64,000 nt of DNA from Vallicoccus soli. Lineage in GTDB: Bacteria; Actinomycetota; Actinomycetes; Motilibacterales; Motilibacteraceae. Under the pieces are notes generated by a model that was not told the DNA's origin, did not search any database, and was given only the letters and a program-made list of their open reading frames with translations. Location: NCBI RefSeq assembly GCF_003594885.1, contig NZ_QZEZ01000007.1, positions 62,001 to 126,000 of the forward strand, read 5' to 3'. Positions within the stretch are counted from its first letter, which is position 1. Each line of letters starts with the position of its first letter. Position numbers and translations under genes: made by a program. Positions 56,781 to 63,308 of this stretch are shown here, one piece after another.

Positions 56781-57650
56781 CTACGGCGCGATCACTGCGC
56801 GCGCACCCCGGTCGGCGGACGTGTCGAGCAGGCGGTGCTCGCCCGTGTACGCGTTGAGGCGCCCGTCCCGCACGAACCCGACGAGGGTCATGCCGAGCTC
56901 CTCGGCCAGGTCGACGGCCAGGCTCGACGGCGCCGAGACCGCGGACAGCACGGGCACCCCCGCGACCGCCGCCTTCTGCACGAGCTCGAAGGAGAGCCGC
57001 CCCGAGACCTGCAGGACGGTGCCGGCGAGCGGCAGGCGCCCCTGGCGCACCGCCCAGCCGACGACCTTGTCGACCGCGTTGTGCCGCCCGACGTCCTCGC
57101 GCAGGCACAGCAGCTCGCCGTCGGGGGTGAACAGGCCCGCGGCGTGCAGGCCGCCGGTGCGGTCGAAGACGCGCTGCTGCTCGCGCAGGCGGTCCGGCAG
57201 CGAGGCGAGCACGGCGGGGTCGACGGCGACCGGGTCGGCGGCGAGGTCGTGGGCGACGGCGACCCGTACCGCGTCCAGGCTCGCCTTGCCGCACACCCCG
57301 CACGAGCTCGTCGTGTAGAAGGCGCGCTCGACCGAGGGGTCCGGCGCCGGGGTGCCGGGGGCGAGGTCGGCGTCGACGACGTTGTACGTCCCCCCGCCCG
57401 GCGAGCCGGGCGCGGCGCCGCCGCAGTAGCGCAGGCCGGCCAGGTCGTCGGCCGTGCGCAGCACGCCCTCGGTGGCGAGGAAGCCCGCGACGAGGTCGAA
57501 GTCGTCGCCCGGGGTGCGCATCGTCACCGCCAGCGCGCGCCCGTCGACGCGCACCTCGAGCGGCTCCTCCACGACGAGGGTGTCCGGGCGCCGGGTGCGC
57601 ACCCCGTCGACGACCCGGACGACCGGGCGGCGGGCGGTCACGCGTCCCAT
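56781..57650 (-). CDS. fdhD: FdhD: formate dehydrogenase sulfurtransferase
   Basis: 289 residues. The CxxC motif in TTSSCGVCGKASLD takes part in sulfur transfer from IscS to the molybdenum cofactor of formate dehydrogenase. DEEPLEVRVDG-like EEPLEVRVDGRALAV, GDDFDLVAGFLATEG and EDVGRHNAVDKVVGWA are family signatures. ATG 57650 has AGGAG. It is divergent from fdhA with only 52 bp between the two start codons, so both promoters overlap. Confidence 0.93.
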   Translation of the reverse strand: MGRVTARRPVVRVVDGVRTRRPDTLVVEEPLEVRVDGRALAVTMRTPGDDFDLVAGFLATEGVLRTADDLAGLRYCGGAAPGSPGGGTYNVVDADLAPGTPAPDPSVERAFYTTSSCGVCGKASLDAVRVAVAHDLAADPVAVDPAVLASLPDRLREQQRVFDRTGGLHAAGLFTPDGELLCLREDVGRHNAVDKVVGWAVRQGRLPLAGTVLQVSGRLSFELVQKAAVAGVPVLSAVSAPSSLAVDLAEELGMTLVGFVRDGRLNAYTGEHRLLDTSADRGARAVIAP

Positions 57651-57690
57651 GCGGGCTCCTCGCGGGGTGTTTGGGCTGCCTGGTGTGTGG

Positions 57691-57696
57691 CATTGT
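57691..57696 (+). promoter_or_regulatory. Candidate leaderless -10 box (CATTGT) for fdhA
   Basis: CATTGT lies six bases before ATG 57703 with no Shine-Dalgarno sequence. A TGTTTG 17 bases upstream is a weak -35. Same spacing as other leaderless candidates here. Confidence 0.4.
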
Positions 57697-57702
57697 GCGC
57701 CC

Positions 57703-60700
57703 ATGGGCGTCCGGACGTGGATCGAGGCCTGGCCGGTCTACCGGCAGCTGACGGGGGACGACCCGCTCGGCCGGGGCGCCGCCGCGCAGTCCGGGAGGAC
57801 CAGGCGCCTCGAGCCGCGCACCGCCACCGCCGACCGCGTGGCCAGGTCCGTGTGCCCCTACTGCGCCGTCGGCTGCGGGCAGCGGGTGTACGTCAAGGAC
57901 GAGAAGGTCGTGCAGATCGAGGGCGACCCGGACAGCCCGGTCAGCCGCGGCCGGCTCTGCCCCAAGGGCTCCGCGAGCGAGCAGCTCGTCAACAACCCGC
58001 TGCGCCAGCAGCACGTGCTCTACCGGCGCCCCTACGGCACCGACTGGGAGCGCCTCGACCTCGAGACCGCGATGGACATGGTCGTGGACCGGGTCATCGA
58101 GGCGCGCCGGCGCGGGTGGGAGGACGAGGACGCCGAGGGCCGGCCGCTGCGCCGCACGCGCGGCATCGCCAGCCTCGGCGGGGCGACGCTGGACAACGAG
58201 GAGAACTACCTCATCAAGAAGCTGTTCACGGCCATGGGCGCGATCCAGGTCGAGAACCAGGCCCGCATTTGACACTCCGCCACGGTCCCCGGTCTGGGGG
58301 CCTCGTTCGGGCGCGGCGGCGCCACGGGTCCCCAGCAGGACCTGGCCAACGCGGACTGCATCGTCATCCAGGGCTCGAACATGGCCGAGTGCCACCCGGT
58401 CGGGTTCCAGTGGGTCATGGAGGCGAAGGCGCGCGGGGCCAAGGTCATCCACGTCGACCCGCGCTTCACGCGGACGAGCGCGCTCGCGGACACCTACGTC
58501 CCGGTGCGCTCGGGCACCGACATCGTGCTGATGGGCGCGCTCATCAACCACGTGATGACGAACGAGCTGCACTTCCACGACTACGTCGTCAACTACACCA
58601 ACGCGGCGTCGATCGTGTCCGAGGACTTCGAGGACACCGAGGAGCTCGACGGGCTCTTCTCCGGCTTCGACGACGACACGCGCTCGTACGACACCACCTC
58701 CTGGCAGTACCAGGGGCACGCCGCCGGCGGTGACGCGGACGAGGAGACCGACGAGGACCGCGAGTCCGAGGAGGGCCAGCAGCTCGGGGCCGGCGGTGCC
58801 GCGCTCGACCACCACCAGGTGGAGCGGGACGAGACCCTGCAGCACCCGCGCTGCGTGTGGCAGGTCGTGAAGCGCCACTACGCGCGCTACACCCCGCAGA
58901 TGGTCGAGGAGGTGTGCGGCGTCCCGCAGGACGTCTTCGCCGAGCTCGCCGACGCGTGGACCTCCAACTCGGGCCGCGAGCGCACGACCGCGCTGGTCTA
59001 CAGCGTGGGCTGGACGCAGCGCAGCACCGGCGCGCAGTACATCCGGGCTGGCGCGATCCTGCAGCTGCTGCTGGGCAACATGGGCCGCCCCGGCGGCGGC
59101 ATCCTCGCGCTGCGCGGGCACGCGAGCATCCAGGGGTCCACGGACATCCCCACGCTCTACAACCTGCTGCCCGGCTACCTGCCGATGCCGCACGCGGAGA
59201 AGCACGGGGACCTCGCGACCTACGTGCACGAGATCCGCGGCGACCGGCAGAAGGGGTTCTGGGGGAACGCCGACGCCTACACGGTGAGCCTGCTCAAGGC
59301 GTACTGGGGCGAGCACGCCACCGCCGAGAACGACTTCGCCTTCGACTTCCTGCCGCGCATCGACGGCGACCACGGCACGTACAGCCAGGTCATGGACATG
59401 ATCGAGGGCGGCAAGATCTTCGGCTACTTCATCCTGGGGCAGAACCCCGCGGTGGGGTCGGCGAACGGCCGCGCCCAGCGCCTGGGCATGGCCAACCTCG
59501 ACTGGGTCGTCGTGCGCGACCTCGTGCTCATCGAGAGCGCGACGTTCTGGAAGGACTCCCCGGAGATCGAGACCGGCGAGATCGTGCCGGAGGAGTGCCG
59601 CACCGAGGTGTTCTTCATGCCCGCCGCCACGCACGTGGAGAAGGAGGGCACCTTCACGCAGACGCAGCGCATGCTCCAGTGGCGCGAGAAGGCCGTCGAC
59701 TCCCCGGGCGACTGCACCAGCGAGCTGTGGTTCTTCTACCACCTGGGCCGGCGGATGCGGGAGAAGCTCGCGGGCTCGGACGACCCGCGGGACCGGCCCC
59801 TGCTCGACCTCACCTGGGACTACCCGGTGCACGGCGAGGAGCAGGAGCCGGACGCCGAGACGGTGCTCAAGGAGATCAACGGGTTCGACGTGGCGACGGG
59901 CGCGCCCGTCGACGGCTACCTCGACCTGCGCGCGGACGGCTCCACGGCCAGCGGCTGCTGGATCTACTCCGGCGTCTACAAGGACGGGGTGAACCAGGCC
60001 GCCCGGCGCAAGCCCGGCCGCGAGCAGGACGAGTACGCCCACGAGTGGGGCTGGGCCTGGCCGCTGGACCGCCGGGTCCTCTACAACCGGGCGTCGGCCG
60101 ACCCCGACGGCAGGCCGTGGAGCGAGCGCAAGGCGCTCGTGTGGTGGGACGAGGAGCAGGGCCGCTGGACCGGCAAGGACGTGCCGGACTTCCAGGCGAC
60201 CAAGCACCCGTCGTTCCGCGCCGGGCCCGACGCTGTCGGCCCGGACGCGCTCGACGGCGTCGACCCCTTCGTGATGCAGGCCGACGGCAAGGGCTGGCTC
60301 TACGCGCCGAAGGGCCTGGTCGACGGCCCGCTGCCGACGCACTACGAGCCGGCGGAGTCCCCGTTCCGCAGCGCCCTCTACACCCAGCAGCAGAACCCGT
60401 CGCGCCAGGTGCTGACCCACCGGGTGAACACGCTCAACCCGAGCCCGCCCGAGGGCGGCAGCGGGGTCTTCCCGTACGTGTGGATGACCGCCCGCCTCAC
60501 CGAGCACCACACCGCCGGCGGCATGAGCCGCTTCCTGCCCTACCTGTCGGAGCTGCAGCCGGCGCTGTTCGTGGAGGTGAGCCCCGAGCTCGCCGCCGAG
60601 CGCGGGCTCACGCACCTCGACTGGGCCCACGTGGTCACCTCGCGGGCCGTCGTCGAGGCGCGCGTCCTCGTCACCGACCGGCTCACCCCGCTGCGCGTGC

Positions 60701-61143
60701 AGGGCCGGACGGTGCACCAGGTGTGGCTCCCGTACCACTGGGGCTCGAGCGGCCTCACCACCGGGGACGTCGTCAACGACCTGCCGAGCCTGACGCTCGA
60801 CCCCAACGTGCACATCCAGGAGTGCAAGGCCGGCACGTGCGACGTCCTGCCGGGCCGCCGTCCCCGCGGGGAGGCCATGCTCGACCTCCTCGACGCGTAC
60901 CGGCTGCGGGCGCACGTCACCCGGACCACGGGGACCGTGGCGCGCACGGCGGAGGCGCTCGGCGAGGAGGGGCGCTCGCGCGAGGAGCAGAGCCGGCAGG
61001 GGCAGACGCACATCGCCCGCGACGCGCCCGGCGCCGACCGGGACGACGTGGTGTCCGCCGAGCACCCCGTCGCGGGCCCCGGCCGCGGCGACGGTCCCGT
61101 CACGGGCCAGGACGGGCCGTCCGACGAGCGACAGGAGCACTGA
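57703..61143 (+). CDS. fdhA: Formate dehydrogenase catalytic subunit, selenoprotein (in-frame TGA = Sec190)
   Basis: 1,146 residues when the TGA at 58270-58272 is read as selenocysteine. The [4Fe-4S] site is C52PYC55AVGC59 with C86PKG. Before the TGA comes GAIQVENQARI, after it HSATVPGLGASFGRGGATG, as in FdnG/FdhF, where Sec-His binds the Mo/W-bis-MGD. The second half has molybdopterin-binding motifs (VIQGSNMAECHP, GNMGRPGGGILALRGHASIQ, LGQNPAVGSANG, HVNTLNP-like RVNTLNP). A bacterial SECIS hairpin follows the TGA. It oxidises formate and passes electrons to FdhB. No Tat signal is visible at the N-terminus. An acidic insert occurs near residues 345-365 (DADEETDEDRESEEG). ORF callers will split this gene at 58272 and restart at 58381. 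Confidence 0.93.
58270..58302 (+). promoter_or_regulatory. Selenocysteine codon and bacterial SECIS element
   Basis: Counting U of UGA as 1, G15-G16-U17 is followed by a CCCC/GGGG stem (58287-58290 with 58296-58299) capped by the loop GGUCU at positions 22-26; GG pairs with CC at 58301-58302. U17 and the GGUCU loop sit at the same positions as in E. coli fdhF, where SelB recognises them. Sequence-visible and unlikely by chance. Confidence 0.92.
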
Positions 61144-62217
61144 GTGGTCTCCCCGACCAGCTTCTTCGGCCCCCTCGACCCGGCGCCCGACGCCGGGTGG
61201 ACCGAGCAGCCGCAGCCGCGCAAGGGCTTCTTCACCGACACGTCGGTCTGCATCGGCTGCAAGGCCTGCGAGGTGGCCTGCAAGGAGTGGAACGCGGTCC
61301 CCGAGGACGGGCTGGACCTGCTCGGGATGTCGTACGACAACACGGGGATGCTCGGCGCCGACAGCTGGCGGCACGTGGCGTTCATCGAGCAGCCGCGGCC
61401 CCTCGGGCGCGGGTCGGCCCCGTTCGCCGGCACCCCGACGGGCCCCTCGGGCACGGACGTCGCCGACGCGGTGACCGCGGCCGGCGTCGACGCGCTGGCC
61501 GACGCGAGCCGGATCGGCAGCGCGCAGCCGGGCGGGTTCCCCGTCGTCGACCGCGCCGCGGAGCGGGTGCGCGAGGCCGGGGGGCAGCAGTTCCTCGGGA
61601 TGCCGGGCACCGAGCTGCCCGGGCGCTCCGCCGAGGGCGTGGGCCGCAGCGACGTCCGCTGGCTCATGGCCAGCGACGTCTGCAAGCACTGCACGCACGC
61701 GGCCTGCCTCGACGTCTGCCCGACCGGTGCGCTGTTCCGGACGGAGTTCGGGACCGTCGTGGTGCAGGAGGACGTCTGCAACGGCTGCGGCTACTGCGTC
61801 TCGGCGTGCCCCTACGGCGTCATCGACAAGCGCGAGGGCGACGGCCGGGCGTGGAAGTGCACGCTCTGCTACGACCGCATCGGCGACGGCGGCACCCCGG
61901 CCTGCGCCAAGGCGTGCCCCACCGAGTCGATCCAGTACGGCGACGTCGACGAGCTGCGCGAGCGCGCGGCCCGGCGGGTGGAGCAGCTGCACGCCGCCGG
62001 CGTGGAGGAGGCGCGGCTCTACGGCCACGACCCGCACGACGGCGTCGGCGGCGACGGGGCGTTCTTCCTGCTGCTCGACGAGCCCGAGGTGTACGGCCTG
62101 CCGCCGGACCCGGTCGTCACCACCCGCGACCTCGGGTCCATGTGGAAGCACGCCGGCATGGCCGCCGTCGGCATGCTCGGCGTGGCCCTCGCGGTCTTCG
62201 CCGGGGGTGGCTCGTGA
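61144..62217 (+). CDS. fdhB: Formate dehydrogenase iron-sulfur subunit (FdhB)
   Basis: 357 residues. Ferredoxin-type cysteine sets are CIGCKACEVACKEWN near residue 37, CKHCTHAACLDVCPTGA near 180, CNGCGYCVSACPYG near 210, and CTLCYDRI…CAKACP, enough for four [4Fe-4S] clusters. Compared with FdnH there is an about 90-residue insert between the first and second sets. A single hydrophobic segment near the C-terminus (AAVGMLGVALAVFAGG) anchors it in the membrane. GTG 61144 follows the fdhA stop directly. Carries electrons from FdhA to the membrane subunit. Confidence 0.92.
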   Translation: MVSPTSFFGPLDPAPDAGWTEQPQPRKGFFTDTSVCIGCKACEVACKEWNAVPEDGLDLLGMSYDNTGMLGADSWRHVAFIEQPRPLGRGSAPFAGTPTGPSGTDVADAVTAAGVDALADASRIGSAQPGGFPVVDRAAERVREAGGQQFLGMPGTELPGRSAEGVGRSDVRWLMASDVCKHCTHAACLDVCPTGALFRTEFGTVVVQEDVCNGCGYCVSACPYGVIDKREGDGRAWKCTLCYDRIGDGGTPACAKACPTESIQYGDVDELRERAARRVEQLHAAGVEEARLYGHDPHDGVGGDGAFFLLLDEPEVYGLPPDPVVTTRDLGSMWKHAGMAAVGMLGVALAVFAGGGS

Positions 62218-63308
62218 GCATGGCGCCGGACGACGCCGGGCAGGGCACGCCCGGCACCCTGCGCGGCACGTCGGCGCGCGAGGCGCGGGTGCACGACCAG
62301 GGCCGGGGCGGGGCCCGGCGCGGCAGTGGCGGGGGCGGCGGCGGGCTCGTCGGCGGCGGCGGCCCGCAGGTCCCCGAGGCGGACTTCCGCTCCTACTACG
62401 GCCGGCCGATCCTCAAGGCCCCGGTGTGGGAGTGGGACATCCCCGCGTACCTCTTCACCGGCGGCCTGGCCGGCGGCTCGTCGCTGCTGGCGGCCGGGGC
62501 GTCGGTGACCGGGCGCGACGACCTGCGCCGGGCGACCCGCAGCGCCGCGCTCGTCGGGATCGGGGCGAGCACGTACTTCCTCATCAACGACCTCGGCCGG
62601 CCCGAGCGCTTCTACAACATGCTGCGCATCGTGCGGGTGACCTCGCCGATGTCGGTGGGCACCTGGATCCTCTCGGTGTACGGCCCCGCGGCCGGCGCCG
62701 CCGCTGCGGCCGAGCTCGCGCCGCTGCTGCCCGAGCGCGGCGTCCTGGGCCTGGCCCGGCGGCTCGCCGGGCCCGTCGGGTCGCTCGCCGGCTGGGCCGC
62801 GGCGGCGACGGCGCCGGCGCTCGCGACGTACACGGCGGTGCTGCTCGCCGACACCGCCGCCCCGGCGTGGCACGACGCCCACCGGCTGCTGCCGTTCGTC
62901 TTCGGCGGCAGCGCGCTCGCCAGCGGCGGGGGCGTCGGGATGCTCGCGGCCCCCCTCGCCCAGGCCGGGCCGGCGCGGCGGATGGCGGTCGCCGGCGCCG
63001 CCGTCGAGCTCGTCGCGGAGCGCCTCGTCGAGACCCGCCTCGGCCTGTCCAGCGAGGCCTTCCACGAGGACGCGCCGCGGCGCAAGCTGCGGGCCAGCCA
63101 GGCGCTCACGGTCGCCGGCGCCGTCGGGGCCGTGCTGGGGCGGCGCAGCCGCGTCGTGTCCGCCCTGTCCGGGCTCGCCCTGCTCTCGGGGTCCGCCCTG
63201 ACCCGCTTCGGGGTGTTCGACGCCGGGGTGGCCAGCACGAAGGACCCCCGGTACGTCGTCGTGCCCCAGCGCGAGCGGGTCCGGCGGGGGGAGCCGGTCC
63301 GCGCCTGA
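62214..63308 (+). CDS. NrfD-like membrane subunit of formate dehydrogenase
   Basis: 364 residues. A Gly/Arg-rich cytoplasmic start of about 55 residues precedes SYYGRPILKAPVWEWDIPAY, the usual NrfD entry sequence. About eight hydrophobic segments follow, including YLFTGGLAGGSSLLAAGA, STYFLINDLGRPERFYNML and SVGTWILSVYGPAAGAAA. NrfD-type subunits replace the haem-b FdnI protein and reduce quinone without haem. GTG 62214 overlaps the fdhB stop (GTGA); ATG 62220 is a possible start. Confidence 0.88.
   Translation: MSMAPDDAGQGTPGTLRGTSAREARVHDQGRGGARRGSGGGGGGLVGGGGPQVPEADFRSYYGRPILKAPVWEWDIPAYLFTGGLAGGSSLLAAGASVTGRDDLRRATRSAALVGIGASTYFLINDLGRPERFYNMLRIVRVTSPMSVGTWILSVYGPAAGAAAAAELAPLLPERGVLGLARRLAGPVGSLAGWAAAATAPALATYTAVLLADTAAPAWHDAHRLLPFVFGGSALASGGGVGMLAAPLAQAGPARRMAVAGAAVELVAERLVETRLGLSSEAFHEDAPRRKLRASQALTVAGAVGAVLGRRSRVVSALSGLALLSGSALTRFGVFDAGVASTKDPRYVVVPQRERVRRGEPVRA

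Follow-up and report, generated by a model that had tools for sequence, protein, structure and literature searches.

The formate dehydrogenase locus

The window, a 64,000-nucleotide stretch of DNA from Vallicoccus soli, carries on its forward strand the gene for a formate dehydrogenase (FDH) alpha subunit at positions 57703–61143, with one in-frame UGA at 58270–58272 that we read through as selenocysteine (Sec190). The reading frame comprises 1146 codons with the UGA as codon 190, and an ordinary ORF listing splits the gene into two. When we compared the encoded protein with family models, it scored 1950.9 bits against NCBIfam NF041513 (formate_DH_Act), above the curated cut-off of 1400, and 922 bits against TIGR01553, and it contains Pfam molybdopterin oxidoreductase domains. 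The protein also carries an acidic, low-complexity insertion at residues ~320–375 (window ~58660–58830; DDDTRSYDTTSW...DADEETDEDRESEE).

Upstream and divergent from the FDH gene lies fdhD on the reverse strand (56781–57704), predicted to encode the formate dehydrogenase accessory sulfurtransferase (NF001943, 369 bits). Two forward-strand genes follow the alpha subunit gene. The first, at 61144–62217, is assigned to the iron-sulfur (beta) subunit of formate dehydrogenase, its best match being TIGR01582 FDH-beta with 176 bits, under the cut-off of 335. The second, at 62214–63308, probably encodes an NrfD-like membrane subunit, based on a weak TIGR03148 match (E 3.6e-5) that is far under the cut-off.

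For comparison we collected 146 selenocysteine (Sec) genes of the same class and 22 cysteine (Cys) homologs, which need no SECIS element; the sequences compared came from the phylum of the window, with three genes of E. coli and a small number of other records in addition.

Structure of the hairpin downstream of the UGA codon

Counting the U of UGA as position 1, the element consists of U17 (58286), the middle base of the GUC codon for Val, an upper stem with CCCC on its 5' side (positions 18–21; 58287–58290) and GGGG on its 3' side (positions 27–30; 58296–58299), and between these the apical loop GGUCU (positions 22–26; 58291–58295), all on the forward strand. The initial annotation had described a GC-only stem quite different from that of E. 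coli fdhF; the stem of E. coli fdnG and fdoG is AGCA/UGCU. It had also named a fold that hides GGUCU as evidence against the element. The minimum-free-energy (MFE) fold of 58270–58310 places GGUCU in a pentaloop at -15.8 kcal/mol, and that of positions 1–40 has -14.4 kcal/mol. The bSECIS model allows a loop of 3–9 nt, an upper stem of 4–16 bp, a G in the first two loop positions, 16–37 nt between the UGA and the apical loop, and an MFE of -7.5 kcal/mol or lower (PMC13188914 Fig. 2). The element lies within all of these bounds, with a loop of 5 nt, four conserved pairs (18–21/27–30; seven pairs in the MFE fold), G22 and G23, a spacing of 18 nt, and both of the MFE values given above. Compared with dinucleotide shuffles, the single sequence showed no excess stability (z = -0.30; 74 of 200 shuffles fold as well), and we therefore rejected its fold stability as evidence for a SECIS element. 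In the 4.04 Mb host genome, TGA-N13-U-N4-RGUYUGG, a loose SECIS pattern, has a single occurrence, at the FDH locus, and its reversed control has none.

The comparative data were more informative. Positions 18 and 30, the third bases of a Val and a Gly codon, vary together in the Sec genes. In the 146 class Sec genes, the combinations were C-G (63), U-A (61), U-G (12), G-U (8) and G-C (1) with one mismatch, so that the two positions pair in 145 of them, by five standard pair types, versus 8 of the 22 Cys genes. The Val codon GUU makes up half of the codons at the position-18 site, versus 1.9% elsewhere. When we examined the hairpin alignment of 113 distinct sequences, 95.3% of the cells were paired versus at most 62.5% under a slide control, and two-sided changes were found in 74 cells versus 13.8 in shuffles. 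Pair 21–27 also covaries, turning to G-C in the wider phylum. In a tree for which the SECIS-coding residues had been masked, we counted at least 37 changes of the 18–30 state; among independent row pairs, G18 tracked C or U at position 30 in 6.8 cases, with 0 in the opposite direction (median p 0.016), and for U18 with A30 the corresponding counts were 5.6 and 0.2 (median p 0.06). Since pair 18–30 covaries strongly, these results confirm that the hairpin is real. Pairs 16–32 and 17–31 were discounted as support, the protein setting both sides of them, with A31 in 21 of 22 Cys genes. Pair 15–33 fails in 31 of the 113 distinct sequences, and we thus make no claim for a lower stem.

Relation to the E. 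coli SECIS elements

The initial annotation had likened the element to that of E. coli fdhF position by position. In fdhF of strain MG1655, U17 and GGUCU indeed stand at the same distances from the UGA as in the window (58286 and 58291–58295). The bases thus coincide, while most of the coincidence comes from protein homology (a Val and a Gly-Leu, see below) and the elements of fdnG and fdoG are nearer.

The kinship was examined using Rfam. At gathering thresholds the whole window gave zero matches. A permissive scan of the short region gave a full-length match to SECIS_3 (RF01989) at 58267–58325 on the forward strand with 32.9 bits (E 5e-6), under the gathering score of 63, and no match to SECIS_2 in 58200–58400 up to E 10. 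Among the E. coli genes, fdhF matches SECIS_2 (RF01988) with 87 bits, whereas fdnG and fdoG match SECIS_3 with 84.3 bits, a score well above that of the window element. With its AGCA-AGUCU-UGCU, the fdnG/fdoG element allows the same stem (18–30, 19–29, 20–28 and 21–27) and the same 5-nt loop, has U17 and G23, U24, C25 and U26 at the same positions, and belongs to the same protein family. It differs from the window element in A22 (G22 in the latter) and in its stem sequence. Because of the SECIS_3 match and the shared possible stem and loop, with which the protein family agrees, the sequences point to fdnG/fdoG (SECIS_3), not fdhF (SECIS_2), as the nearest E. coli relative.

We also considered whether the element could be of the fdhF kind, with an upper stem of 3 bp, a loop of 6 nt and U17 as a lone bulge. 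The loop GGUCU is identical to that of fdhF, while fdnG and fdoG have AGUCU. Yet the covariation of 18–30 calls for a stem of 4 bp and a loop of 5 nt, which fdnG and fdoG can also form, so that stem register and loop size differ from those of fdhF, and Rfam separates the two kinds as described above. In addition, G16 of E. coli can pair with C30 (fdhF) or C31 (fdnG), which leaves U17 bulged, whereas positions 30 and 31 of the window element are both G, G16 pairs with C32, and U17 faces G31. Based on these observations, a structure of the fdhF kind seems unlikely.

The actinobacterial selenocysteine FDHs (NF041513; compare A. chiangmaiensis DSM 45062, PMC7176365) belong to the same protein family as the window gene and share the same hairpin among the sequences collected. 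We found no feature that sets the window element apart from these actinobacterial Sec-FDH SECIS elements, and the core CCC-GGUCU-GGG is the commonest form in the class. The element belongs to a known kind of RNA, of which it is a divergent member, and lies in a known family (NCBIfam formate_DH_Act).

Protein constraint and RNA signal

It is conceivable that the match with fdhF reflects protein homology alone, with the codons for a conserved Val and a conserved Gly-Leu giving U17 and GGNCU and the RNA having no function. The second base of the Val codon is U17, the first two bases of the Gly codon are G22 and G23, and those of the Leu codon are C25 and U26. All five of these bases are present in 22 of the 22 Cys homologs, and E. 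coli fdnG and fdoG have the same bases at the same positions save A22. Since the conserved Val and Gly-Leu dictate them, these five of the six bases matched with E. coli are not evidence for a SECIS element. The sixth base behaves differently. U24 (58293), the only loop base free of protein constraint, occurs without exception in the Sec genes (146 of 146, the codon being GGU or AGU) but in 3 of 22 Cys genes, a contrast that rests on few independent events (four Sec/Cys changes on the tree, with the Cys homologs in few lineages). At their other Gly codons, these Sec genes use GGU in about 10% of cases, and the window FDH gene has GGU at 5 of 113 Gly codons. When we resampled synonymous codons with the protein fixed and the codon usage of the gene itself, U24 together with the four-pair stem arose with a probability of ~0.011; as evidence against chance, the comparative data are stronger than these single-sequence data. 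The signals that separate Sec from Cys genes are therefore U24 and the stem. Based on U24 and on the third-base covariation at positions 18 and 30, protein homology as a full explanation is already refuted and its probability is minimal, although it does account for five of the six bases that match.

A proline at residue 7 of the SECIS-coding stretch occurs only in Sec genes of the class. We rejected it as an RNA-driven feature, the Cys homologs being separate lineages and distant Sec genes having Ala or Ser. One Cys homolog, L144 (G036), keeps GGU and still matches SECIS_3 weakly (27.9 bits, E 0.02), and it is possible that this gene carries a relic SECIS element.

The loop itself varies in nature. 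Among the 146 class Sec genes it reads GGUCU in 109, AGUCU in 23 and AGUUU in 14, varying at positions 22 and 25, while U17, G23, U24 and U26 are invariant; U17 is invariant in the 22 Cys genes as well. These natural loops contradict the earlier view of GGUCU as a recognized unit. The apparent link between A22 and U25 (GGUUU being absent) was not significant in a tree test (median p 0.125). When members of the phylum further removed from the class were included (144 distinct sequences), U17 and U26 remained invariant, and seven distant sequences with Ala at residue 8 of the SECIS-coding stretch have lost G23 (GCUUU, GCGUU and GCUCU). The hairpins of these FDH genes (L238, L243, L244, L245, L246, L247 and L256), taken over the first 48 bases from the UGA, fold in another register, and they may be a second type of SECIS element within this gene family.

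Decoding of the UGA and the selenocysteine machinery

At the position of the UGA, the homologs aligned here have UGA, in one case UAG, or Cys codons. The UAG occurs in L039 (G389), where it replaces UGA as the Sec codon with the hairpin unchanged (GUG-CCC-GGU-CUG-GGU), which agrees with the known use of UAG for Sec in Geodermatophilaceae (PMC5330540). Both Sec and Cys versions of the same formate dehydrogenase are present in genomes G130 and G322.

The absence of a SelB gene had been named in advance as grounds for abandoning the element. The host genome (4.04 Mb, 98.6% complete) encodes selD, selA, tRNA-Sec with a UCA anticodon, and selB in one cluster, ~8–14 kb downstream of the FDH gene. 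The host SelB contains the GTPase, barrel and C-terminal SelB-wing_3 domains, and its C-terminal part matches winged-helix structures from Moorella and, weakly, from E. coli (1lva, 2uwm, 2ply and 1wsu; 2pjp with E 0.25). Across genomes, Sec FDH and SelB co-occur: 86 of the 87 genomes with a Sec FDH contain the SelB winged helix, versus 3 of 20 with the Cys version only and 18 of 286 with neither, and the single Sec-FDH genome without it is only 63% complete. Genomes with the SelB winged helix for which neither a Sec nor a Cys FDH of this family is listed (G005, G043, G107, G150, G306, G353, G376 and others) may hold other selenoproteins. In another actinobacterium with selenocysteine FDHs, formate removal is selenium-dependent and SelA and SelB are expressed (PMC7176365).

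The alternative of a genuine stop codon or a sequencing error at the UGA, leaving a pseudogene or two genes, has a negligible probability despite the split gene in standard ORF lists, given that most class homologs of this kind, from many genera, have the same UGA, that others align a Cys there, and that the whole Sec machinery is encoded; judged by this conservation, a sequencing error in particular is very unlikely.

Based on these observations, the element is almost certainly a bacterial SECIS element in an actinobacterial selenoprotein formate dehydrogenase gene. The reading frame, the hairpin covariation, the Sec-specific U24, the presence of SelB, SelA, SelD and tRNA-Sec, and the co-occurrence with SelB were computed here, and from them we infer insertion of selenocysteine at the UGA (58270–58272). 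By analogy with E. coli, SelB would bind the hairpin, with U17, G23 and U24 as putative contacts. In the mRNA, positions 18–21 pair with 27–30 and expose the five-base loop, where G23 and U24, together with U26, are fixed. When the ribosome arrives at the UGA, the host SelB, carrying Sec-tRNA-Sec, would be expected to attach to the hairpin by its C-terminal winged-helix domain, and selenocysteine would then be inserted in place of termination.

Predicted pairing of U17 and possible implications for recognition by SelB

In the E. coli element, U17 must be bulged, and mutations of U17 and G23 abolish readthrough (review, PMC8659212). The arrangement of U17 and base 31 is the sole structural difference from E. 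coli that we consider of interest. In the window element, U17 is predicted to pair with G31 (58300) with a probability of 0.993 in a fold of the free RNA, where base 31 is also protein-determined. Base 31 of the class Sec genes is A in 84, G in 57 and U in 5, and is never C. Residue 11 of the SECIS-coding stretch is Thr, Ala or Ser, partly for protein reasons, and because this residue is protein-constrained too, the base-31 pattern is not proof of a paired U17 in vivo. The predicted fold suggests that a U17 bulge of the E. coli type cannot be assumed for the window element. One possibility, which we hold tentatively and regard as rather doubtful, is that U17 of the actinobacterial FDH SECIS elements lies in U-A, U-G or U/U opposite base 31 with no extruded bulge, and that SelB opens this pair or reads mainly the loop (G23, U24 and U26). 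If this is true, the natural variants would define a mode of SelB recognition that differs from that of E. coli.

Base-for-base matches between the SECIS elements of homologous selenoproteins need to be corrected for shared protein sequence, and the bases that are still informative after this correction are U24 and the stem. The initial annotation had seen in the locus a clean test of the bases read by an actinobacterial SelB. This is true in part: U24 and pair 18–30 can be changed silently, but changes at U17 and G23 alter the enzyme. Enzyme-neutral tests are possible by turning GGU into GGC at U24, and by varying pair 18–30 through the third bases of Val (GUC, GUU or GUG) and Gly (GGG, GGA, GGU or GGC). 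The best use of the locus would thus be to probe SelB recognition by silent mutations at U24 and at 18–30.
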